The notes under the pieces are model-generated. The model was not told where the DNA came from and ran no database searches. It saw nothing but the letters and a program-made list of their open reading frames with translations. Positions 2,473-25,167 of a stretch of 25,287 nt of DNA are shown here, one piece after another (positions within the stretch are counted from its first letter, which is position 1; the number at the start of each line of letters is the position of its first letter). The position numbers and the translations under genes were made by a program. This DNA is from Spirogloea muscicola. Its lineage: Eukaryota; Streptophyta; Zygnematophyceae; Spirogloeales; Spirogloeaceae. Location: the NCBI GenBank assembly GCA_009602725.1, contig WELB01000236.1, positions 29,624-54,910 of the forward strand, given 5' to 3'.

Positions 2473-5400
2473 TCAGGAGAGCTCTGGCGGCCTTGCCGGC
2501 TTCACCTTGGGGCTCATCAGCCCTGCGCGAGGATCAAGCCCCATCTTCTTCAGGAGCCGGGCCCGCACCCCACCTGTGGGCGCTGGCGGCTTCTTCACAG
2601 GCGGCCCGCCTCGCCGGTCCCCTGCTTGCTCCTTTGAGCTCTGCATACTCGAAATGAACGACTTTGATATCAGTCTGCAATCATGTGAAGGTCAATAACC
2701 AAGTCTCAGCCGTCATACATAGAATGAGCTGCCGACAGCTCGAACGAGCATATCATGAGGTTCCAGCATTGAAACTGTGGAAGGACAGGCTATCATAGAT
2801 CCTTTGAGGTCGATTCAGATCTTGGCAGCACACGAAAGTGAGCAAACTTTTGATACTATTACTCCACCTTATGGGCTGGCCCGGAGATGGCCTTCTTATG
2901 CTGCCTGGAGCCACGGTCATCTGCAGAGAGGTCATCATCTTCCACCGCCTCAGCAGCATCCTGTCCCCTCTCAAAGACATCGGATTCGTCGTTGTCGCTC
3001 AGGGAACCCGGGGGGGGCACATATTCGTCATCGTCTGACGAGCCCAGTCTGTCCCCCGTTCTCTGCATGCGAATGGGAGACAGGACTTCACTGAAGTGCT
3101 GATGTCGTCCCATGGCCACAAATTGGCTTGGACGGCTAAGATCCTGCAGACCATAGACTAGCATGATAAAAGGCAACAACAATCAATCTGCTACATCTCA
3201 GAGGTCTCCAGCTGAGGAGCAATCTTACCTTGACTGTCCACTTGGCTCCGCCAGCCACATCTCTGACAGGCGATTGCAACTGCCATACACGTCCTTGAAC
3301 ATCGTCATGTCAGCGTCGAAGACGTCAGCTAACCACATACTTCTACCCATTGAAATCACCTGTCTCACAGGATTCTAGTGAAGACATGGACACCGAGAGA
3401 GCATATTGGCTCACTGTGATTCGGATCTTGTTGGGACTTTGTTGGGACTCAGCAGCTCGATTCCCCCCACGAGGACGTATCATCTGCAGAAATGACATAG
3501 CTACATCAGTGATGCCAACTTACCTGGTGCTTGCACTGCTCATCTGTTGGTGAGATAGAGGCACAACAACACCTGACGTTGTCTTCTCCACGCGATCCAT
3601 TTCTCTTTGTGCTCTACCAAGCATGCCTGTGATCATGACTATGCAAATTATAGTTTGATTGTCATACTCAGAGAGCATGAAGAGCTCACCTGTACTCTGC
3701 GACCAAGTTCGGCTAGCATTGCACCAGAATCAGCTAGGCCTCGCCAGGTGGCCTCTGGAGCTTTGACCTTGAAAGGCAAGACCACAACTCTCACTTCAGC
3801 TACTCATCCTCTGCACAGTTTTCCCGACCAGGGAGGCTTAGATTGTACCAACAAGAGCCTCCACTTTGGGGGCTTGCAAAGCGCGTGACAAATGCTTTGG
3901 TGTAGGCAGCAGCACACCTTTTTGGACCAAGACTTGAGGAGGGCGAGAAGGAACGGCACACCTTCTCTTTCTCTTTTGCTCAAGCTGGTGCTCGTATCTT
4001 CAGCAGCCCGTCCTTAACCCCGGAGAAAGTCCAAGTACCACCTTCCTGCATACCTGTCCCAACAAATGGCGGCTGCTTTTGGACGTGGCAGCGAGACTCC
4101 ATGAAGGAGAATGCACTGACTAATGGATCCTTGAACAAGGACATCAAACCAGTGTGGTCATAATGCATCCTGTTTCATCCTGGAAAGTCTGCCAGCATTG
4201 TACCACATGAGCTGCTGGTATGATGCCAGGCTGCCACTGGATGGCCTCCCTAGGCGCTCCTCCAATCCATACGTGCTTTTTGCCAAAGAAATGATTGCAT
4301 GAGTCAAAGATGTTGCAATATTTTACAACGTTGGCATGCTCTGGAAACGTTCTACCACTGGCTATGCAGACCCTATGTGGTGCTTCTCACAGTCACACTG
4401 TGCAGCGAGGCAGCACATTAAATGGTGCATGGAGGATATAAATGAAGCTGCAGTGGGAAGTTGTAGGGAGTGTGAAAGCTGCCGCCCAGGAGCAACGTGT
4501 CTTCAACTGCCGCTCTGGTGTGAGCCCAGCCACCAGGTCTGCAGGGCGCAAAGCAAATCAAGAGAAAGTCTCACCAAGACGAGGGGGACAATCAACCATA
4601 CTGCCTTGTCATTGCCACCATGAGGATGTAAGCTTACATCCTGTGATGTAAAGGACTGACAGAGATCTAGCAAGTGCCAGAGGGATGGGAGACTCACAGG
4701 ATGAGTGTGTCACAGGCATGGAGCTCACACTTGCGGCAGGAGACGGCCATGTCGAGGAAATTACCAACCTGTAATATACACAGCCTGCTGAGGCTGCTAA
4801 GCAAATAGCAGATGACGCATGGCAATCTGACATGCTTCATTCTTCATTGAAGCCTCACTTATGACTCCGAAATATCTTGGCTACTACTCTGAAGCATTGG
4901 GCAGACCCAAGAAGCACCACGGCCTGGAAGTATAAAACAACAGGGTCGTGCAGGTGAGTAAAGTACCTTCTTGTTGAAGCACCACCGCTCCAATTCATGC
5001 AGATTAGCAGCAGTTGGTGGAGCTATGACAAGTGCAACTCTGCCCCTGACCCAAACATCCAGCATCAGGGATCCTGAGAGGGAGCATCAGAGGCCAGGTT
5101 TGCACCTTTTGTATAAAGCGGGAACATGCTCAAGGTAGTAGTGACTTACTGGACAGCATGTAACCAGAGAGAGGAGCCTTGAGGCGCAATCTTAAAATCT
5201 AAGACGCAGTTCTCCCCATATGCGGCCAAAAGTATCTGAGCAGACACATAGTACTGACATCAGAGGATGGCTCTGAGAGAGGTCAGGCAAATTCTTCGTC
5301 AGAAGACCACAGCCAGAGGACCCTGAACCCAAGTAAAACGTCAGAGTACTGTAAGTAAGAAAGAAAGAATAAAAGCAGTGCTGCCAGACCACAGCTCTGA

Positions 5401-6654
5401 ACACTTCTTTCCTGCACACTCCTGTATACCATGAACGACACTCTTTACACAAAATAGTACCACACTAGTCTAATATACAGCCATTTGACAAACTGACCTG
5501 CGGGGATGCAGGAGCACTTGATGGCCAAACCTTTGCCTGCAAATCTACCTCCGTGACCAGATCTGGGGCTCTTACCTGCAAAGCAGCAAGAGAAGCCAAT
5601 CAAGGAGCGGCACGGCACTTTGACAGTCAACGACTAGAGCCGCATCTGCAACTCCATGCAAGGGCAGATGGGCCCTGATTGGGTCTAGGTGCCAGGCTGA
5701 AGGATACAATCTAGGCTTTTCTGTTGTGGCTATGAATCATTGAGGTTGAGCCACACAGATCAGCACTGCAGCAGGAAGAGCAGACACGGGCAGGCAGGGT
5801 GATTGTCCAGCAGCCTCTTGGCTAGAGCGCACAACTGGTGGCCTTCGCTTCTTCTTAATGGAAAGCCAGGTGTCCCAGTTGGTCCAGGCAGAGCACCTCG
5901 TTTATCGTACCATGCTGGCCAGAGCCGTGGTTGAGACATCCAGGGCGGGCAGCGCCAGCAGCGGCTTCCGAGGCGCCGGCGAGGCCATGTACCTGGCCCA
6001 CTGCTTCATGCTGTACTGCGGGCCAGCACCCTGCTCCTCGGCCATGACACCGAGCTCGCTTGCTGGTGAGGACGCTTGCTGACGTTAAACTGATGCCAGG
6101 TACTCAAATCCCGGAGTCCTAAGACCTCAACCCTCACACTACCTTCCTGGTGCTTGCAGTGCATCCTTGATCATGCATGCACATTGGCTGGGCGCAATAG
6201 ACAGGGGTCGAGACTGCAGGTGGCATGCAGACCTGGGCAGCGACGTCGTAGGTTGCAACGGGCTTGCTGCTCCCCACGAGCTGCACCAAGCGCTCGGAGC
6301 TCGCTGCCTCCACCGGCACCCTGCCACGCTCCGCGCCAGCAAGAGCAGCTCAGGCAGTGCCGAGAAGGTCCAGACAGTGACGTGCTCATGCAGTGCGCCT
6401 CGACCAACCTCATGCCCATGGCGTCGTCGGGGCGGCCTGAGAGGCCCTGGATGACCATAGGAGACTGGAGCTCGTCGCGCCGCAGCGCCGAGGCCGCCTC
6501 CGCAGCACCCAGGACCCGGACGCCGGGCGCGGGCCGTCCATTGCCTCCACTGCGCCGGCGGCCGGCAGCGGCCACCTCAATGACACTCCTGAAGAGCGCC
6601 TTGTGGTCCGGCCTGGCCGACGGCCCGCTCCTTGCGCCGCTGCGCTTGCCGTCG

Positions 6655-6690
<36 letters not shown>

Positions 6691-6755
6691 GTGGCGCCCT
6701 CCTCGTCGAGCTTGGCATAGTCCCGCACCACGCGCGGGCGCTTGGACCGCCGCAT
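2473..6755 (-). CDS. JmjC-domain protein, KDM2/KDM7 (PHF8)-like, with degenerate active site
   Basis: Chromatin protein of the Jumonji-C histone-demethylase class, probably nuclear, about 670 residues. Exons (minus): 6755-6409, 6320-6233, 6078-5911, 5575-5498, 5348-5322 (uncertain), 5235-5150, 5045-4967, 4768-4698, 4538-4449, 4275 to about 4190, about 4011-3918, 3767-3690, 3626-3573, 3483-3360, 3328-3229, 3135-2868, 2640-2473. The N-terminus is basic with an 11-Asp run, followed by LVGSSKPVATYDVAAQ, YSMKQWARYM, DLVTEVDLQAKVWPS, ENCVLDFKIAPQGSSLWLHA, LVIAPPTAANLHELERWC, CDTLILPGGWAHT, YNFPLQ, YQQLMWYNA and KREREGVPFLLALLKSW. These match KDM2/7 JmjC domains in order and nearly without gaps. An acidic SDDDEYVPPP region and a basic tail (VKKPPAP, RARLLKKMGL) end the protein. 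The HxD iron pair is replaced by K and A; the distal His (GWAH) remains. Exons 9 and 10 lack GT donors, so a GC donor, a sequence error or a decaying gene is possible. Confidence 0.85.
6657..6690. repeat. GTC/GAC trinucleotide microsatellite coding for poly-Asp
   Basis: About eleven uninterrupted GTC units on the plus strand, read on the minus strand as GAC codons. They give an 11-Asp run near residue 23 of the JmjC protein. The repeat lies in frame inside exon 1, so its length can vary without breaking the protein. Open frames in the other five readings here are shadows of the repeat. Confidence 0.9.
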
Positions 6756-11010: not shown

Positions 11011-11350
11011 AAAGAAGAAAGGGCTCGCCGATTGAGGATAGGGGCTGGACAAGCCAGCCCAAAAAAGAATGAACAAAGAACGAGAAGGGGGCCAGAGGAA
11101 GCCAGAGGAAGCGCTAAGAAACCAAAGCACACAAAGAAAGAAAGCAGNACTCAGTAACCCCTGCTAAGCAGCCGCAGATCAGAGATGCTGGGCTCCTGGA
11201 AGTGGGTCCCCTGGCCAGCGCCAGAGGCAGCAGCGAGGGCTCTGCCGGCACGAAGGTGCAGCGCCCGGGCCATGGACCTCTGCAGCGAGACGGCCAGGCG
11301 CATTCGATACACTTGCGCCAGCGACCCGGCTGCAGGGAAGTCAACCGGCT
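11011..11350 (-). mobile_element. LINE family A, 5'-truncated copy X (3' end)
   Basis: The minus strand encodes the end of the retrotransposon ORF: GEPVDFPAAGSLAQVYRMRL, SLQRSMARALHLRAG, then ISDLRLLSRGY and stop. The same sequence recurs in the copy at 24567-25167. After the stop (3' side, lower coordinates) comes a tail holding a short hairpin (11041-11060) and a purine-rich run, ending near an AAGAAGAAAGGGCTCG motif shared with other copies. The 5' break is at about 11350, where coding sequence runs abruptly into tail sequence of an older copy. One N at 11148 interrupts it. Confidence 0.75.
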
Positions 11351-11435
11351 CCCCATTGAGAATAGGGGCTGGAACAACCAGCCCGAAAAAGAATGAACAG
11401 AGTACGAGAAGGGGGCCAGGGGAAGCTTGAAAGAA

Positions 11436-11672
11436 AAGAAGAAAGGGCTCGCCCATTGAGGATAGGGGCTGGACAAGCCAGCCCAAAAAAGAATGAACAA
11501 AGAACGAGAAGGGGGCCAGAGGAAGCGCTAAGAAACCAAAGCACACAAAGAAAGAAAGCAGCTACAAATTACTCAGTAACCCCTGCTAAGCAGCCGCAAA
11601 TCAGAGAGGCTAGGGTCCTGGAAGTGGGTCCCCTGGACAGAGCCAGAGGCAGCAGCGAGGGCTCTCCCGGCA
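11436..11672 (-). mobile_element. LINE family A, 5'-truncated copy Y (3' end)
   Basis: Nearly the same 3' tail as copy X (hairpin, purine-rich run, stop of the RGY end), then only the last few dozen codons of the ORF before a 5' break at about 11672. Between copies X and Y (11351-11435) is another tail unit with hairpin and GAACAGAGTACGAGAAG run, from an older insertion. A further diverged unit lies at about 10930-11010. All are in the same orientation, so this is a stack of nested 3' ends. Confidence 0.7.
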
Positions 11673-13785: not shown

Positions 13786-16700
13786 CTAGCCAGGAAGCGT
13801 GCGACCACTATATTGGTAACTGTTTGGAGACTGAGGCAAGGAGGTCAGTGCCTGACAGTAGCCATTTGCACTACAGCCACAACCATAAGGATTTGACTCG
13901 CAATGTCCGTCTGGATCACATGCATAATATCCTTCGAAACCACAGAATGAGCAGTAATTTCCAGCACTCCCTTCATAGGAGCAGTGACCTTGGCCGTCAC
14001 AACGTGTGCAACATATGCCAGCACGATTCTCTCCACAATCATATCTGTCGCCACATGTTGTGCCCTTTGGCAGGAAACCTCGCCCCACACAGTAGCCCTG
14101 ACTGCACCACATTACAGTTGCAAGTAATTTTGTGAGGTCTCTGGCAGTACTTGGGTAGGATCACCTTCCGGCTGCGCTTGCTACTCCAATTAAGCCTTGC
14201 ATGACCAGTCTGTGTGGAGGGCAAAAGCATGGCCGTGAATTTCAACAACCCATTTACAGGAGTATGCTTCTCTGTCACACGGAATTGTAGCCATCCTGAT
14301 GCACGTGGAAGTGGTGTTATCCTGGCTCTGAAGAGAATCAAAAGCAGAATTCACCACAGCTTTCATTCAGCCCAAGAGTGGAAGCCATGCCCTCCCTGTT
14401 AGTGGACTGCTTGTAGGATAGAAGAACTTACTAGCATCCCAGTGAGACACACTCGTGGTCATGATCGTAGTAGTCATAAACTGGTGGGGGCTCTGTGTTG
14501 TAATCATAGCCTGGATGGTTGGGGTCTGCAATAGGTGGGGCTCCGCCATCAAATGTGTCGCAGAGAATATGGTCTGGCTTGTTTTTGACTGCTGTGCAAA
14601 CTCCGTCCCTGTAAGACGATTTTAAGAATCGTGGGTTGACTTTAGGTTGAGAAGAGAGACTGCCATTTGCTTTCAGCAACATCCTGAAATGTAAGGCGAA
14701 ATATAACCGAATCTCATCTGTCTGATTGTCAGACATACGAAGCCTCTGCATCCAGTACTTTGCCATTTGACAATTTGGACAAGAACAGTGGAGGCGCTCT
14801 CACTAACTTGCAAACTTTCTCCATGCACTGGCTTGAGCAGGACGTGTTGTCTGGGCTGGTGAATGCTTGAGTACCACAGAAGCCATTCCCACTGCAATGT
14901 GATACCACTTTTCAGAGCTAGCTCATTTCCTGTCTTTGCTTACGGGACCAATTTGCATGTCTCATGTTGCATGATTTGAGTACTAGCTCCTCAAGGAATG
15001 GAGTGTGTATGAAGTGATGGAGGGCCTGTGTGGCCAAGTACAAAGGCAAGCGACATATGGACATCACTTGCTGCTAAGCTGACCCGCTCAGTAACCACGA
15101 GTCAGCACATGGAGGTCGCTAACTGATGCCCGAACACTGGATGGCAAATGACGTCAATGATAGAAGCAAGAAAGCAAATGACATGGAGGAAGGTAGTGGA
15201 GCAGCACCTGCAGTAGTTTGTCTTGCAGTTTGGCAGAGAGGTAGAGTTGCACAAGGTCTTGTTGTTTGCAAAGACAACAGTATAGCAGCCCCCAGTGCTG
15301 AGCCAAGAGAGACACACTTATCATCAGTAAGCAATCTGCTGTTCACCAGCGCATGAAGCAACATGACAAAAGTAACAGAACAGTCGGAAATATGTTCAGC
15401 CTGTTAAAAGTACTAACATGACGTTGTAGAAATATCCAGGATCTGACCTACACAGAGCTTTGAAACCTACGCCATGACATGGCATTGAATGTGTGCTGGT
15501 GTTGTGAAAAGAGTCTCGAAGCACACTACAAGGTCATGCTTGGTAGTAGCATCTATGCTCACCTGTTGCAAGTAAGATGGTAGCATACGGGATGCCACTG
15601 AGGATTTAGTGGGGGATTATCGGATGGAAAGGCATTCTTGCAAGGTCTTCCAGGATGCGGAAAGGCTGTGCAAGTGCCATTCCTGCAGACAAACAGAAGT
15701 GACGTACATGGACAAGCACATCTCTTCCCGGTCAGGCTGCTATCTTAGTGAATGACGGTCACTTTGGACTTGTACACGTGGCTTGGCAAGTCACATGTGA
15801 CTTGCAAAGGGACATGGCAAGTACTGCAACATTACATCAATGTCACAGTGAGATGGGATACTGCAATTGCAGTGAACAACCTGCAGAGATGATCTTGGCA
15901 TTGGTCAGAAGTTGCAGAGCAGAGGGCACCATCAATTGCTTGCTGTGTCACGCAACTTCCCTTCCTGCAGCAGACGATGAAACTGTCAGTACTTCATCCA
16001 CTCCTATGAAGCGAAAGCTGACTCCACCATCGAGAATATCTAGCAACTCAGGAAAAACAATAACCCATTCTGCAAGCTCCCGGCAAACCTTTGGACATGG
16101 CATCCTTCTTTCACGACATGCACAAGTGGGTTAGTACAAGGATCACTCATTCCTTGTACTCAAGCATGGCAAGACGGCTGAGCACATAGCCACAGCAATT
16201 TGTTGCTCATCACATCCACGTGCTAAGCAGGTCTTCTCAAGCCTGCTTGCATGACTGCACGTCGAGTAGAAGGCAGTCATGGTACCCATCACAAGAAAGC
16301 TCTTGCTGGCAGAACTGAGGATCATCACGCCAAACGGGTGGGTAATATTCAGGGTATATCCAGCAAGGACTTTGTGCAGGCTGGAAGACATGCACGCATC
16401 TCCCACTCCTGCAGCATCATGGGCACACAGAGGTCAGGTCTCCAGGAAGGAGCTATTCCCAGAGGGCCTGCTTTGAGCTAATATGGTCTGGGTTATGCTA
16501 GACTCTTATGCACACGTCAAGAATATCTCATGTGTAGTCGTAATATATTCGTGAGGAGAAGTCCTTGTTCACCTGCATACAACGGAAGCACAGTCGGAAT
16601 CGGCGAAATCTACGTCATTGGGGCATTCTGTGGTACTTCCTTCTGTGGTGCACTCAGCTGCCAAGACACAACAAAGTGAGGGAGCTGCCATGCCATGCAG

Positions 16701-19700
16701 ATTAGAAGGCCAGAAATCGTCTACAGAGCTGGTGCACCTCTGGCTACACCTGCCAAATGTGAGTGCTGGACAAATACCAGGTGGTGAAGGTGGGGATGGT
16801 GGAGGTGGCGGCGGCGGCGAAGGTGGTGGTGGCACAGGAACACCATAGAATAGCTCACACTCAACATTCGCCCTCTGGCCTGAAGTAGGCATGTGACCGC
16901 CTGTGGTGAAGCCAAAGCAATTCTTGGTGAAGTTGAGGTACACCCCCTTGGCTGTGATATTTGGCTGCATGCCAGTGAGGTAATTTGAGGCCACACTGAG
17001 TGTCTTGAAAGCTGTGGAGTTTATCAGGGGGATGAGCGACATGGGGAAGCTGCCACTGAAGCGGTTGTCATCTAAGCGCCTGCAGGGCAGGAATAAACTC
17101 TAAGCATAGTGAGTAACTTCCAATGCTTGCTGTTCCAAAGTATTGAGGGGTAAGCAAAATTCCCAATACCATGGTACAGAAACAGCACAATGGCTTGCAA
17201 ACCAAAGACGAATCGAACAACAGCAGTATCGTGACTCCGTTAAAATTGGAAAAAGTCACCACTCACAACAAAGTCAATTTCTTGAGGCTTGTCCCAAGAC
17301 TTGCTGGTATTGTTCCATTGAATTTGTTGCCATTGAGAATCCTGCAATGCGATGCTCAGCCTGCTCAGTGGCCTGCTGAGACAGCACTTCTTAACGTCTA
17401 GGGTGGCCCTGCTTTGAACAACAAAAGTGACAACCACTCGGCCAGACAGTCCCTAGCCACCAACGCCCGCAAGCCTAGCACTTGTCGGGGCCCAATATAG
17501 TGTGTAAACATACAGCAACTGCAGATTTGTGAGGCCAGTCACATAAGAAGGAACCAGCTGCTCAGTCAGGTTGTTCCGAGAGGCGTCACTGCCACGTGAC
17601 CAATGGCATGTGTCAGCTGTTTATCGAGATATTAGTGACATGTAGCGATAGGGCTCATGATGTTGTCAGGTGCACTGGTGTGACAAGGTCCATGGTAGCA
17701 GTACATGCTGGCCAAGCTTCCTATCACGCAGTCTGCCTGTGAGAGGCTGGCAGAGTCAAGGTGTCTGAGCTTTTACTTCAAGCTGCCTTTGTGGGGAATA
17801 AAGTATGGCATTCGCATGTACGTGCTTCGTTCTGATGCAGTAGCTGTTGTCACTTCGGGAAGTCTAGGGGTTCGGGGTTAAGTAATATGGGGTTTAGGTT
17901 TTAGCATTGGTAGCATGCTTACAGGACTGTAAGGAATTGGAGCTTGCCAATGGAACTTGACAATGCCGAGATAGCATTGCCACCCACAACACTGAGGAAA
18001 ATGGAACAAGTGCCCACATCGTCAAAGCCAACACTGCGATCAGCTAATAGCTCTGCAAGCAAGAACCTTGAGACGCTTGAGAGAAAGGGAGCTTTTCCGT
18101 ACAGCTTCTGCAATCCCGTGAGTCGATCCAATGTGCTCGGCAGAGGTCCACTCAGCTTGTTATCATTTACAATACTGCAAAAACAGGCGCAAGTCCCTGA
18201 GGATCGTGACAACCCGACTTAGGCATTGCAAGCTATCACCAACGTGTGTGACCTGTGGAACCTGACAATCCATGAAAGGATACTAAGTAAGAAGCAACAC
18301 GTGTACACTATGCAGCCCTGAAATGTCCACCATATGCTTCACACAAGTGGCAAACTACAATATTTCAATTTGGCGGGCTAGATGTGATGCTTTCTAGGAT
18401 TCTCAAGCACTTTGCAGAGTTGCATTCTCAGAATATTACTCACAGTATCGCAAGCTTTGTCAGTGCATTCATTGAAGATGGTATTTCCCCAGTCAGTAGA
18501 TTGTAAGCAAGATGTCTGGGAGCATATTCCGAGAGAATATCACAACAATCCGCTTCGTCAGTGAACCAAGTAAGGGCAAGCAGTCTACAACATTAATGAC
18601 CAGAAGAATCTTGTGAGGCACAAATGCTCCATGGTCATCGGCCTCACAATGTAAAGAGGAGGAGGAGGAGTGAAGCCATCGAGGAGAAGTCATGGATGCA
18701 CACTTGTATTTATCATATGAGCTCTCCCACAGGAGCAAAGCCATGGATGCAGATGGTATTGACCATAAGAGCTCTCTAGTCTGGACGAAGATCACTGCCT
18801 TGACAGCACAAGAACCTCATGTAGGATCTGCTTACAACAGTGTCAAATTTCTCAGGTTGCCAATGGAAGTGGGAATTGGCCCGTTCAGGCTGTTGTTGTC
18901 CAAGTTCCTGAATGAGGGTCCAAGAAACGGCATTCCAAATATGAGGATGTTATGGCCTAGAATACCAATTGGCGCAAGGTTTGCCACCTACTTTTTGATC
19001 ACTATCAACAGTCATCATCTCTCCTCAAATGCCACATGTATACTCCCTTCAACATCCAGGAGTGATACGTCACTCTACACATGAGCTCCAGCACCACATG
19101 ATCACGCAGATGCAGGTATAGTCATTATTCCATGTCAGAGGTCATCACAGGATATACACATACAGCAGACTGAGATTGTGAAGGCTTCCTATGCTGGAAG
19201 GGATCCGTCCGAAGAGCTGATTCCCGTATAGGTGCCTGCAAGCATGCAACAGCAACTTTTGGACGAGGACCAAACCCTTTCACCAACCAAAAGCTGGGCA
19301 TTGCAAGGTCCACCTGCCTCTTAATTGCTGCATGCACAGCAAGAAGCTTATTTCTGATGACTATCAGTATGATGCACACGTGACACCCTGGTGACTGGAA
19401 AGGCCACCTTGAGGACTTACAACGTATTGAGGTATACGAGATTCCCTATGTTGTAAGGGATCACTGTATTGATGCCAAGGTTGATGAGTTGTCTGGAACA
19501 CACGCACAACGTGTGTGTCACATGCCGGTCTGCAAAATACAAAGCTGAGGCAGCAAGTACAAAAGCCTGTTTCCCTTGGGAAAGAGTCAGGCTAGGGTGG
19601 TGATACTCACAATGCGGAGACCCTGTGAGAGGGGATGTCGCAGGTGATGCCATACCAGGCGCAGCTGCCCGGGGCGGTGGTGCAATTTGCACATGGGTCT

Positions 19701-21179: not shown

Positions 21180-21885
21180 CAGAGACCTAAACTAACTTGG
21201 CCCGCCACGAGGGGGCCAAGTGGGGCGGAAGGGCCCATAAAGCCACGCCACAGGTGCAGATGCGATGCGGTGCTGCTGTGGATGCGAGCGTGGCGGGGCG
21301 TGGCGCTAGTGGCAAAGCCCTGCCGGCCCGCGACCCGCGGGCGCCGGCGGCTGCCGGCGGCGGCCGACTTCCCGGCAGCCCGCCCGGCCGGCCCGCACGC
21401 GCGCTCCACCTGTCGCGGCGTGCTCGCCTCCTGCCCACTTTCTCCTGGGCTGTCCAGATTACAGCCGTCGCCCTCTCCTGGAAGCGCCTTCTCCCTTTGC
21501 AAAGCCAGTGAAAAGCAGCTTCTCCTTCTTCTCTTTCTTTCCTGTCAGTCTCGCTGCAGCCGTCCATGGCACGCGCGTTGCATCTGCGTGCCGGTCGCGC
21601 AGATGCAACGGCAGCCTTCTCTGGCTCTGGCCAGCATCTCCGACGTGCGGCTGCTCAACAGGGGTTACTGAGAGCCTCGTGGCCACTTGAGTCACTGTGT
21701 GATTTAGCGGTTTCTCTGGCCCCTTCGAAGTTGTCCATTCTTCTTGCTGGGCTGGCCTCTCACAGCCATCGCCCTCTACTGGAAGCGTCTCCTCCTCCAT
21801 TCTAGAAGAGCTACTGTATTCACACGCTTCCCCAACATCACACCATCGTCCCAAGCTTAGCACCCCCCCCCCCCCCCCCCCCCCC
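21180..21885 (+). mobile_element. LINE plus-strand copy P1, 3' end with C-tract
   Basis: A GC-rich block from 21284 (GCGAGCGTGGCGGGGCGTGG) is followed by a C/T-rich stretch, then the retrotransposon ORF end in broken form. The frame reads CGCSTGV instead of DVRLLNRGY in one register, while DVRLLNRGY is kept in another. The tail holds CCCCTTCGAAGTTGTCCATT and GGGCTGGCCTCTCACAGCC and ends AAGCTTAGCA followed by a run of C. It is a direct repeat of copy P2. It lacks two segments that P2 has and contains a 13-bp inverted repeat at 21576-21610. The limit left of 21284 is approximate. Confidence 0.65.
21863..21885. repeat. Poly-C tract ending in an N
   Basis: Twenty-three consecutive C, then N at 21886, then the start of the next LINE copy. 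Copy P2 ends at the same AAGCTTAGCA-C junction with a shorter C run, so the C tract is a property of the element's 3' end. Its true length here is unknown because the N probably marks a collapsed homopolymer. Confidence 0.9.
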
Positions 21886-21886
21886 N

Positions 21887-22587
21887 GCGAGCGTGGCGGG
21901 GCGTGGCGGGGCGGCAGGGGCTGCCGAGCCCTGCCGGCCCGCGACCCCGGGCTGCCGGCGGCCGCCGGCGGCAGCCGACGACCCGGCAGCCGGCACGGCC
22001 GGCCCGCACGCTCGGCCCACCTTGTCGCGGCGTGCTCGCCTCCCTGCCCCCTTCCCTTTCTTCTTTCCTGTGCTGGCCATATCACTGCCGCCGCCCTCTC
22101 CCGGAATCGCCTCGCTGGGGGTGAGGCGGAGACGGCGGCGTTTCAAAGCCAGTGCAGAGCAGCTTCTCCTTGTTCTCTTCTCTTTCCCGCTCTTAGGCCC
22201 CTCTGAACCTTTGTGAATTCTTTTTGGGCTGGCTTTTCCTGTCAGTCTCGCTGCAGCCGTCCATGGCACGCGCGTTGCATCTGCGTGCCGGTCGCGCATT
22301 GGCGGCAGCCTTCTCTGGCTCTGGCCAGGGGATCCGCCACCCGGAGACTGGTATCTCCGACGTGCGGCTGCTCAACAGGGGTTACGGAGAGCCTCGTGGC
22401 CACTTGAGCCATGTATTATTTAGCGCTTTCTCTGGCCCCTTCGAAGTTGTCCATTCTTTTTCCTGGGCTGGCCTCTCACAGCCATCGCCCTCTACTGGAA
22501 AGCGTCTCCTCCTCCATTCTGGAAGAGCTACTCTACCCACACGCTTCCCCCCCATCACGCCCTCGTCCCAAGCTTAGCACCCCCCCA
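21887..22587 (+). mobile_element. LINE plus-strand copy P2, 3' end
   Basis: Direct repeat of P1 immediately after the C-tract. The plus frame reads SLQPSMARALHLRAGRALAA, then ISDVRLLNRGY, where the usual stop codon is replaced by a sense codon (TACGGA instead of TACTGA). The ORF end is recognisably the same as in family A (SLQRSMARALHLRAG...RLLSRGY). The tail repeats that of P1 and ends AAGCTTAGCA plus seven C. Confidence 0.7.
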
Positions 22588-22840
22588 GCCATCGAGAGAA
22601 AGACGCTTCCAGGTGAGGGCGGTGGCTGTGAGAGGCCAGCCCAGAAAATAGAATGAAAAGGTTCGAAGGGGCCAGGGAAAGCGCGTAAGCACACAGGGAA
22701 GCAAGTAGCTACGAAACACTCAGTAACCCTGTTGAGCAGCCGCAGGTCGGAGAAACTGGTCTCCTGGTAGCGGCTCCCCTGGCCAGGGCCAGAGGCTGCA
22801 GCTAAGGCAGAGCCGTCACACGCACGACTGAGCACCCGCT
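22588..22840 (-). mobile_element. LINE 3'-end fragment, inverted against P2
   Basis: The minus strand reads ALAAASGPGQGSRYQETSFS, then DLRLLNRV with a shifted frame at the stop, then the tail (CTTTCCCTGGCCCCTTCGAA, GGGCTGGCCTCTCACAGCC, CTGGAAGCGTC). Its 3' end abuts the C run of P2, so the two copies meet tail to tail. The 5' break is near 22840. Confidence 0.65.
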
Positions 22841-23171: not shown

Positions 23172-23880
23172 ATTTGGAAACAAACGAAGGCCAAAATAGC
23201 CAAGTACGAAGGCAAGCAAAAGGAATGACGTACGTTAATAACTGCGAACTGACCCGCTCAGATACCACGGGTCAATACATGAAGGTCACTGATCGATGCC
23301 TGGATACCAGATGGCGGATTCGAGGCCCTTCTGCCACCAACTAGAGCTCGCCCAACTTTCTGTTGCAAAGTGTGTGCCTGAGCACGCTGCAAACAGGCCG
23401 ACACTCGTCGTCGCAAGATCGACAGATGTGCAGCTGGGAAGCCCATCTCAGCCGGAAGCACATCTGCACATCGTGCATAGCCTAGATTGGCAATATTCTG
23501 AAGGAGTGTCTATATGAGGACCTAAACAGCCAAAGATGTCTACTGCAGCTGGCAGGAGCTGATGGCATGGGGGATAATTGAAGTAATGCTGCAGCTCTCT
23601 GTGTTCTGCACTGCCCGCCGCGTGGCCAGCGATGTGTGTCGATGCTGGACCTTCAGAAGCCTCCGTAAGAACCGAAAGGAACAGCGCTTCCAACGGCGTA
23701 TCAACAACATCAACCAAGGCCCGTGGTCCTCCACCAGGTTGCACGCCCACGACGTCAAAGGTGCGGCGATGATGACGTCCCTGGGCATCCGTGGTGATAG
23801 GCATGATGATAGCTTCCACTACGACCGCACTATGCATAGCTATGGACCGTCAAGAGAAGTGGCGCTCCCAAAGGAATATT
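23172..23880 (-). mobile_element. LINE family B copy B (decayed)
   Basis: Diverged direct repeat of the copy at 23889-24535. The 3' end lies at a TTGGCCTTCGTTTGTTTCC motif shared with that copy. The coding part is broken: one minus frame (23837-23448) gives RTFDVVGVQPGGGPRALVDV and stops early. A second frame (to 23258) gives GFPAAHLSILRRRVSACLQR and DLHVLTRGI. The frameshift and extra codons (LEALFLSVL) mark it as the older of the two. Confidence 0.75.
23258..23837 (-). pseudogene. Retrotransposon ORF C-terminal domain, frameshifted
   Basis: Remains of the domain that follows reverse transcriptase in algal non-LTR elements. The two overlapping frames together cover the same stretch that is uninterrupted in the neighbouring copy (23971-24510). 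A frame change near 23455-23470 and an RGI instead of RGY end are visible. No catalytic reverse-transcriptase motif is present, as this lies 3' of it. Confidence 0.65.
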
Positions 23881-23888
23881 TCGTGTAT

Positions 23889-24535
23889 TTTGAAACAAAC
23901 GAAGGCCAAATGGCCAAGTACAAAGGCAAGCACATCTCAAGACCTACATATCTACAGCAGGTTGACCCGCTCAGTAACCACGGGTCAAAACATAAAGGTC
24001 GCTAATCGATGCCTGAATACCAGAGGTCAGATACGAAGCCCTTCTGCCACCAACTAGAGCTCGCCCAGCTTTTTGGTGCAAAGCATTAGCTCGCTGCAAA
24101 CAAGCCGAAACTCCTCGTCGCAAGAACGACAGATACGCAGCTGGCAAGCCCATCTCAGCCGGAAACAAATCTGCACGACGTATGTAGCCTAAATTGGCAA
24201 TATTCTGGAGGTATGTGTGTAATCGCGGACCAGAGCCAAATATTTCGATTGCCGCTGGCAGGAGCTGATCACATTGGGGATAATCGGAGTATTGCTGCAG
24301 CTTTCTTTGTTCAGCTCCGCCCACTGCGTGGCCAGCGATGTGTGTCGATGCTGGACCTTTATACGCCTCCGTTACAACGACATCGACCAGGGCCCGTGGT
24401 CCTCCACCAGGTTGCACGCCCATGACGTCAAGCGTGCGGCAGTGATGACGTCCCTGGGCATCCGTGGTGATGGGCATGATGATGTTTCCCACTACGACCG
24501 CACCATGCATAGCTACGGACGGTCGAGAGAAAAGG
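23889..24535 (-). mobile_element. LINE family B copy A (5'-truncated, ORF end intact)
   Basis: Same family and orientation as copy B, which begins immediately downstream, so the two are head to tail. The 3' end lies at CCTTCGTTTGTTTCAAAA. The 5' break near 24535 adjoins a short GC-rich spacer and then the family A copy. The last part of the ORF is uninterrupted to its stop. Confidence 0.75.
23971..24510 (-). pseudogene. Retrotransposon ORF C-terminal domain fragment (family B)
   Basis: 179 codons read DVMGVQPGGGPRALVDVVVT, then AGHAVGGAEQRKLQQYSDYP, LLPAAIEIFG, EMGLPAAYLSFLRRGVSACL and ISDLYVLTRGY, stop. This layout (DV-T, a KY/QY segment, PLAIE-G, then R-S-LQRANA) is what I know as the C-terminal region downstream of reverse transcriptase in non-LTR retrotransposons. 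There is no start and no RT core, so it is a fragment, not a host gene. Confidence 0.65.
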
Positions 24536-24556
24536 CTCCCCCACTGGGGGCGGGGG

Positions 24557-24566
24557 CTGTACTAAG
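24557..24566. repeat. Target-site duplication, left copy
   Basis: CTGTACTAAG directly at the 3' end of the family A copy. The identical 10 bases occur at 25168-25177 at its 5' end. Confidence 0.75.
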
Positions 24567-25167
24567 AAGAAAGGGCTCGCCCATTGAGGATGTGGGCTGG
24601 AACAGCCAGCCCAAAAAAAGAAGAGTACAAGAAGGGGGCCAGGCGAAGCACTAAGAAAGACAAGCACAAAAAGCGACCAAGCAGCTACGAATCACTCAGT
24701 AACCCCTGCTAAGCTGTCGCAGGTCAGAGATGCTAGGCTCCTGGAAGCGGGTCCCCTGGCCGCAGCCAGAGGCAGCCGCAAGGGCTCTGCCGGCACGCAG
24801 GTGCAGCGCACGGGCCATAGACCGCTGCAGCGAGACGGCCAGGCGCATGCGGTACACCTGTGCGAGCGACCCGGCTGCAGGAAAGTCCACCGGCTCCCCG
24901 TGGAAGCGGCGGGCGATGGCGTGGCGGGCGAGCTGGTTGAGCAGCTCGAGCCACCGAGCACCCAACGCCGCATGGGTGTCGATAGCTAGCGGGAAGAACA
25001 CGTCCTCCGCCGGGTGGTCAGCATACTTGAGCTCTTTTGCCCGAGCGGCGCAGGCGACCGCATACCCAGCCTTGGTGGCACACTGGGCTGGGTGGGAGCG
25101 GTCGAATGCGTCGGTAGTCACCACGTCCAGGAGAGGGAGGACGTGGCCCGCCACCTTGTGGGGTGCA
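24567..25167 (-). mobile_element. LINE family A copy Z, 5'-truncated, with target-site duplication
   Basis: A 601-bp minus-strand insertion bounded by identical CTGTACTAAG repeats. It holds the ORF end (stop at 24696) and a 3' tail with the family hairpin (24594-24612, GGGCTGG...CCAGCCC), the purine-rich run and the AAGAAAGGGCTCGCCC end. Its uninterrupted ORF and intact target-site duplication suggest it is the youngest copy in the window. It lies inside older LINE tail sequence that resumes at 25178 (CCAGCCCCAAGAAGATCACG). Confidence 0.8.
24696..25167 (-). pseudogene. Retrotransposon ORF C-terminal domain fragment (family A)
   Basis: Open from the 5' truncation to the stop: LLDVVTTDAFDRSHPAQCAT, AKELKYADHP, VFFPLAIDTHAALGARWLEL, GEPVDFPAAGSLAQVYRMRL, SLQRSMARALHLRAG, ISDLRQLSRGY. 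It has the same segment order as family B (DVVxT, KYAD, PLAID-GALG, LQR-ARAL, ISDL-RGY end), so both belong to one superfamily. Known function of this region in non-LTR elements is ill-defined. No start codon or RT core is present. Confidence 0.65.

Follow-up and report, generated by a model that had tools for sequence, protein, structure and literature searches.

JmjC-fold chromatin proteins in which catalytic residues are missing or non-canonical are already known, JARID2 and Epe1 being described examples (PMC4233403, PMC7192584). JARID2, which has homology to the KDM5 family, is reported to be without essential catalytic residues, yet to be a key developmental factor (PMC4233403), and Epe1, for which a non-enzymatic function is described, keeps an HxE....Y motif (PMC7192584). 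PHF2, a member of the KDM7 family (KDM7A, PHF8, PHF2), has an altered metal site as well (GWIY, one Fe ligand changed) and is described as demethylating H3K9me2/me1 (PMC10769511). In human KDM2A (JHDM1A, FBXL11; PDB 4qwn and others), H212 and D214 have been mutated as the catalytic site (PMC3098377), and the N-terminus is reported to contact the nucleosome acidic patch (PMC10769511). According to a 2008 survey, KDM2 is animal-specific with no plant member, the plant JmjC genes considered come from Arabidopsis, poplar, rice, and moss with none from a green alga, no JmjC genes were collected for the alga Ostreococcus, and altered cofactor sites are noted in plant JmjC proteins of other subfamilies (PMC2579438).

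The window, that is, the whole stretch of 25,287 nucleotides from Spirogloea muscicola analysed here, contains on its minus strand a gene that would extend this picture, encoding a KDM2-type protein with a JmjC core and a Jumonji helical domain in which the Fe(II)/2-oxoglutarate pocket appears to have been dismantled; judged from the DNA, it has probably long been maintained as a non-enzymatic chromatin protein. The gene model, spliced by hand, spans 6755 to 4017 and has nine introns, eight of them GT-AG and one proposed to be AT-AC. Exons A to J were assigned manually, guided by the three reading frames and by resemblance to KDM2/7, and the start codon of the model, the ATG at 6755, is a guess. 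All seven introns between exons A and H are GT-AG with the phase kept and are 88 to 335 nt long, the I-J intron is GT-AG as well (150 nt), and the joints H-I and I-J are likewise in frame; the multi-exon reading is open over 358 codons up to a TAA. Since the splice sites were picked to follow homology and to keep the frames open, the intact frames are partly so by construction. The features of the gene are collected in Table 1.

Table 1. Features of the KDM2-type gene in the window (codons on the minus strand are given from higher to lower position)
Feature	Position	Strand	Reading and remarks
Exon A	6409..6755	minus	N-terminus, basic then Asp-rich, ending GM(R)
Exon B	6233..6320	minus	VPVEAASSERLVQLVGSSKPVATYDVAAQ
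Exon C	5911..6030	minus	QYSMKQWARYMASP...LLALPALDVS; Ala at codon 5955-5953 in place of the 2-oxoglutarate Asn; acceptor position uncertain
Exon D	5498..5575	minus	VRAPDLVTEVDLQAKVWPSSAPASPQ
Exon E	5150..5235	minus	LDFKIAPQGSSLWLH where the family has TDFHxDFGGTSVWYH; the exon as a whole (5235-5150) reads ILLAAYGENCVLDFKIAPQGSSLWLHAVQ, preceded by CAG and followed by GTAAGT; Thr replaced by Leu at 5202-5200, His by Lys at 5193-5191, and Asp by Ala at 5187-5185
Exon F	4967..5045	minus	GRVALVIAPPTAANLHELERWCFNKK; 2-oxoglutarate Lys replaced by Val, 5038-5036
Exon G	4698..4768	minus	VGNFLDMAVSCRKCELHACDTLI
Exon H	4440..4538	minus	PGGWAHTRAAVEDTLLLGGSFHTPYNFPLQLHL; sole kept Fe-ligand position, His 4522-4520
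Proposed AT-AC intron	4273..4439	minus	ATATCCTC...GCAC, 167 nt; its removal gives an in-frame junction of QLHL and YGLEERL
Exon I	4204..4272	minus	YGLEERLGRPSSGSLASYQQLMW; Jumonji helical domain begins
Exon J	4017..4053	minus	YAGRWYLDFLRG; helical domain
In-frame TAA	4014..4016	minus	Immediately follows LRG; may be a nonsense codon, lie in a very short intron, or come from an error in the assembly
Continued frame past TAA	3918..4013	minus	GRAAEDTSTSLSKREREGVPFLLALLKSWSKK; raises the helical-domain score
Exon L (candidate)	3690..3767	minus	VKAPEATWRGLADSGAMLAELGRRVQ; weak
C-terminal tail (candidate)	2476..3182	minus	Acidic SSDDDEYVPPPGSLSDNDES (frame 3182-2862) and GVRARLLKKMGLD (frame 2691-2476); tentative

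By similarity of sequence, the JmjC core is that of the KDM2/KDM7 family by descent. When a 327-residue model was compared with the PDB by phmmer, human KDM2A was the best match at E 2.1e-27, a similarity that is not due to chance, followed by KDM7A (1.5e-20), PHF8 (1.7e-20), and PHF2 (4e-19). The 17 PDB sequences listed with E values up to 1 all belong to JmjC proteins: the 14 best are KDM2A, KDM7A, PHF8, PHF2, and the worm KDM7 homologue (E 2.1e-27 to 4.1e-10), and the last three are JMJD6 at E about 1. The kinship with KDM2/KDM7 proteins proposed in an earlier note on this DNA is thus borne out, with the refinement that the closest solved relative is KDM2A and not a KDM7 protein. The protein of the window shares with KDM2A a JmjC core that aligns without gaps through the active-site strands and the same order of segments with the Jumonji helical domain behind; it differs in its overall identity of 81/246 residues (33%) and in the replacement of five cofactor-site residues (Asn, Thr, His, Asp, and Lys). 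The KDM7 proteins belong to the same JmjC-helical family and give a weaker JmjC match than KDM2A. For the segment YGLEERL...WYAGRWYLDFLRG the alignment score is highest with PHF8 (63), ahead of PHF2 (50) and KDM2A (43). Identity to PHF8 amounts to 66/235, against 130/246 between KDM2A and PHF8 themselves. In an alignment with KDM2A, PHF8, the N-terminal half of KDM7A, and the C-terminal half of PHF2, 51 of the 119 columns that are invariant in KDM2A and PHF8 (and in KDM7A where letters were at hand, the columns of the second half being defined by KDM2A and PHF8 only) are kept; the other 68, five of which are gaps, are not, and the protein is therefore diverged overall.

The Pfam JmjC family PF02373 gave no match up to E 1 with the model of exons A-H, the only Pfam match being Cupin_8 at E 0.31 over residues 269-297, whereas the KDM2A control scored 32.7 bits against PF02373 (cut-off 24). 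As the Pfam JmjC model is blind to the protein, automated annotation could miss such genes, and counts of the family could be too low. No CxxC, PHD, F-box, or LRR domain was listed by Pfam for exons A-H, a model that ends before the C-terminal tail beyond exon L, and no PHD finger was found by Pfam ahead of the JmjC core in the model that starts at the guessed N-terminus at 6755. The frame 2859-3182 of the candidate tail gave no Pfam match up to E 0.1. Near the end of the other frame of the tail lies GVRARLLKKMGLD (2691-2476, minus strand), which may be the last exon of the gene and which in our view is similar to the basic motif found at the C-terminus of KDM7 proteins.

The catalytic site, in contrast to the scaffold, is largely gone. 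In the alignment to KDM2A, five of the six Fe(II)/2-oxoglutarate positions no longer carry the family residue—Asn is Ala171, Thr is Leu223, His is Lys226, Asp is Ala228, and Lys is Val243—and only the distal His, residue 296, is kept, giving an iron-ligand motif of KxA...H in place of HxD...H. In JmjC demethylases, Asn, Thr, and Lys contact 2-oxoglutarate, and the distal His is an iron ligand. The earlier note had read the exon at 5150-5235 as carrying Lys and Ala in place of the iron ligands His and Asp and Leu in place of the 2-oxoglutarate Thr, and the core alignment, in which KDM2A TDFHVDFGGTSVWYH stands without gaps opposite LDFKIAPQGSSLWLH, agrees on each of these changes. The same holds for the following exon, in which the Lys was said to be Val with an Arg one place earlier, GRVAL standing opposite GGKVF of KDM2A. 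The His of GWAH was rightly named as the only ligand retained, its position in the present model being 296 and not about 321, and the upstream Asn (LYNVIS in KDM2A) was absent from that account, so that the loss is greater than had been claimed. Further changes affect the Tyr of WYH (Leu236) and the Asn of GGN (Ser310). At least 3, 2, 2, 2, and 3 nucleotide changes are required at the five replaced codons, and with a total of at least 12 the loss of the site was not one recent event. It is larger than the change in PHF2, since it extends to two Fe ligands plus three of the contacts to 2-oxoglutarate, and larger than in Epe1, which keeps its HxE....Y. With the scaffold recognisable and the catalytic site gone, the protein is a probable pseudo-demethylase.

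Behind the JmjC core, the Jumonji helical domain (PF17811) is recognised from exon H onward, as it also is after the JmjC domain in the KDM2A control, but it is interrupted by the in-frame TAA at 4016-4014. Seven readings of this region were scored against PF17811 (cut-off 23.4 bits), five of which lie above the cut-off: 30.1 bits with a 21-nt intron at the stop (frame kept), 29.5 bits when the stop is read as X within one exon, 25.3 bits with a 48-nt intron from a GTTAAG donor (frame kept), 24.6 bits with a 54-nt intron from the same donor (both lengths counted by hand), and 23.6 bits when the protein is cut at the stop. The two readings below the cut-off are both without WYLDFLRG, a cut before these residues giving 19.8 bits. 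The stretches on either side of the TAA thus each add to the helical score; the 29.5 bits with X against 23.6 when cut indicate that the stop sits in formerly coding sequence, and the similarity that continues in frame past it indicates that the ancestral protein was longer. When the sequence of exons I-J was shuffled, 0/5000 shuffles scored as well against PHF8 and PHF2 and 2/5000 against KDM2A, whereas for the second helical segment of KDM2A against the K-L candidate 153/5000 shuffles scored as high, which makes this latter match weak. The helical part alone had 26 PDB matches up to E 10, the best being antibody chains at E 0.048, with PHF8 in register at E 1.5; the C-terminal part of KDM2A compared with 2.4 kb of the window matched YGLEERL...WY at E 0.049.

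The TAA could be escaped by the 21- or 48-nt intron, by a longer intron that costs helical score, or through an assembly error. Removal by a very short intron with the GTTAAG donor, or an assembly or allele error, either of which would leave the protein at full length, is a serious possibility if not the prevailing one, and it refines the view of a long-kept non-enzyme instead of competing with it. Both short introns keep the frame, and the 21-nt reading gives the best helical score of all; however, the other introns of the model are at least 88 nt long, and 21 nt is below usual intron lengths. Two further treatments of the stop were set aside: a 54-nt intron that skips WYLDFLRG, with which the helical score drops to 22.0 bits, and TAA as a glutamine codon, there being no TAA or TAG in exons A-I, though these hold 13 glutamines by hand count.

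Whether the gene is retained or decaying was approached through its open frames. Exons A-I hold no stop in 345 codons and have splice dinucleotides at every joint, albeit hand-chosen ones, and the chance that random codons with this base composition hold no stop is 6e-5. Under simulated free drift of 0.1, 0.2, and 0.3 substitutions per site, 4.5%, 0.3%, and 0.1% of copies stayed stop-free, with a mean of 5.2 stops at 0.2; this simulation is a rough one on our own assumptions, starting from the present sequence with indels and splice sites excluded, and because the exons were picked by hand the test is weaker than its numbers. These points, together with the at least 12 changes at the cofactor codons, speak against a decaying pseudogene, in which a KDM2-type gene under relaxed constraint would be without its active site by now and would also have acquired a premature stop within the helical domain. 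Such changes alongside open frames imply constraint over most of the divergence, and any decay would be recent. This explanation is nonetheless one to be weighed, as the TAA breaks up the helical domain if it is not spliced out with a very short intron, which leaves early decay possible, and the helical score is higher across the stop than up to it. Moreover, the 68 of 119 family-invariant columns that are not kept include cofactor sites that fare no worse than the others: 1/6 cofactor sites is kept against 50/113 other invariant sites (one-sided Fisher p 0.18), and a preferential loss of the active site is thus not demonstrated. GC3 is 0.85-0.88 in exons A-C, drops to 0.46-0.50 in D-F, and stands at 0.70 in G and 0.59 in H; intron GC declines too, from 0.65 to 0.44-0.54 beside exons D-F. 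On balance, decay of this kind seems unlikely, though less so than the explanations that follow, and in our judgement the gene was long retained as a non-enzyme, with a stop that is either spliced out or a recent nonsense change. The earlier note had argued for a retained scaffold without demethylation; of this, the loss of the site and the recognisable fold, seen in the KDM2A and PF17811 matches, are upheld, while retention over decay is only partly shown, given the TAA in the helical domain, the Fisher p value, and the GC3 of exons D-F.

A truncated functional protein, with the TAA as the true end of a JmjC-like domain and part of a helical domain in 358 codons, would fit the frame that is open to this point and a helical score that, when cut there, just exceeds the cut-off, but is improbable because the helical similarity runs on in frame past the stop. 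Least probable by far is an active oxygenase that owes its activity to another exon or to a metal site of an unusual kind: although PHF2 without the distal His is described as demethylating and a non-canonical site need not be dead, the HxD residues, Thr, Lys, and Asn are lost together here, which removes the contacts to both metal and 2-oxoglutarate, and no exon with HxD was found in three introns or by tblastn of the window. In the three minus frames of the D-E and E-F introns no HxD or HxE occurs, the same scan of the C-D intron gave one HLD and one H-stop-E and no exon-like HxD, and tblastn of the complete window with KDM2A, PHF8, and the PHF8 core as queries, up to E 5, yielded no second HxD copy. 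A different exon that supplies HxD had been named beforehand as the finding that would speak against the loss; these scans of the DNA alone gave none, and to that extent the loss is not refuted. A search for relatives with the 142-residue piece encoded by exons D-H confirmed 0 of 11 pattern matches in IMG/VR viral contigs and 0 of 30 in GTDB genomes, both of them collections not meant for eukaryotes. In the titles and abstracts of the matches listed for green-algal KDM2/KDM7 proteins or pseudo-demethylases, the protein is undescribed.

If the protein is the long-kept non-enzyme favoured here, Fe(II) and 2-oxoglutarate binding would have been lost and demethylation with it, while the gene was kept as a folded protein after or during the loss of the site. 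Its most likely role would then be to bind a histone tail or the nucleosome surface through the folded JmjC and helical domains without any chemistry, acting on chromatin as a scaffold or competitor. By analogy with KDM2A, and if the guessed start is right, the N-terminus MRRSKRPRVVRDY might, speculatively, contact the nucleosome acidic patch. The fuller proposition that a green-lineage KDM2-type protein turned long ago into a stable, non-catalytic reader of nucleosomes or histone tails, conserved in its clade and equipped with an AT-AC intron, is a tentative one. Finding a KDM2-type gene in the green lineage would widen the family; against the background of dead JmjC proteins such as JARID2 and Epe1, as they are described, one of the KDM2 type in this lineage would be new, and its lack of a cofactor site would, if true, mean that scaffold role and demethylation have been separated in nature.

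The joint between exons H and I has no GT donor at the end of homology. With an AT-AC splice, CAT TT is followed directly by G TAT GGA, which gives QLHLYGLEERL, with the same spacing as QLKIYNIEDRT of KDM2A, and the intron at 4439-4273 is probably, on its sequence, a minor-type AT-AC intron. A GT-AG solution was sought by eye and rejected: there is no GT between LHL and the next TAA; past the last stop in the YGLEERL frame a single AG is present, and its use would add one residue, the AT-AC splice being exact. The motif [AG]TATCCT occurs six times on both strands of the window where about six are expected with equal bases, and therefore proves nothing by itself. Three branch-site patterns had no match in the H-I intron, in which TCTTTGAC was seen by eye. 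Among algae, minor introns are on record for Chara braunii, Klebsormidium nitens, and Cyanophora paradoxa (PMC10639083), whereas an earlier study found none in Chlamydomonas and counted green algae among the groups without them (PMC2846911). By these accounts, few algae are so far reported to have minor introns.

Elsewhere in the window, scans with Rfam (gathering threshold) and for tRNAs yielded nothing. The next gene upstream, on the same strand at about 10828-8118, encodes a FYVE domain (PF01363, E 2.7e-19, hand-joined exons), whose setting looks to us like that of plant FREE1. The FYVE match itself is not plant-specific, the best PDB matches being animal proteins such as WDFY3, while FREE1 is called plant-specific (PMC12051064); such a neighbour makes a green-algal source of the DNA probable. 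Copies of a dispersed repeat lie at 11011-11672 and 24563-24904 (67-99% alike). The frame 16569-17099 on the minus strand encodes the proline-rich VPPPPSPPPPPPPSPPSPP, for which Pfam gave only a weak Mito_fiss_reg match (E 0.079) and which is, to our eye, reminiscent of green-algal wall proteins. Direct repeats 611-717 bases apart and 86-100% alike occupy 21316-22794 together with three inverted pairs, and a duplication at 23250-24543 has offsets of 673-713 bases and copies that are 81-88% alike. The minus-strand frame 25172-24696, without a Pfam family up to E 0.1, overlaps the repeat copy at 24563-24904 and holds VDFPAAGSLAQVYR, which to our eye is reminiscent of an ABC1/AarF kinase.
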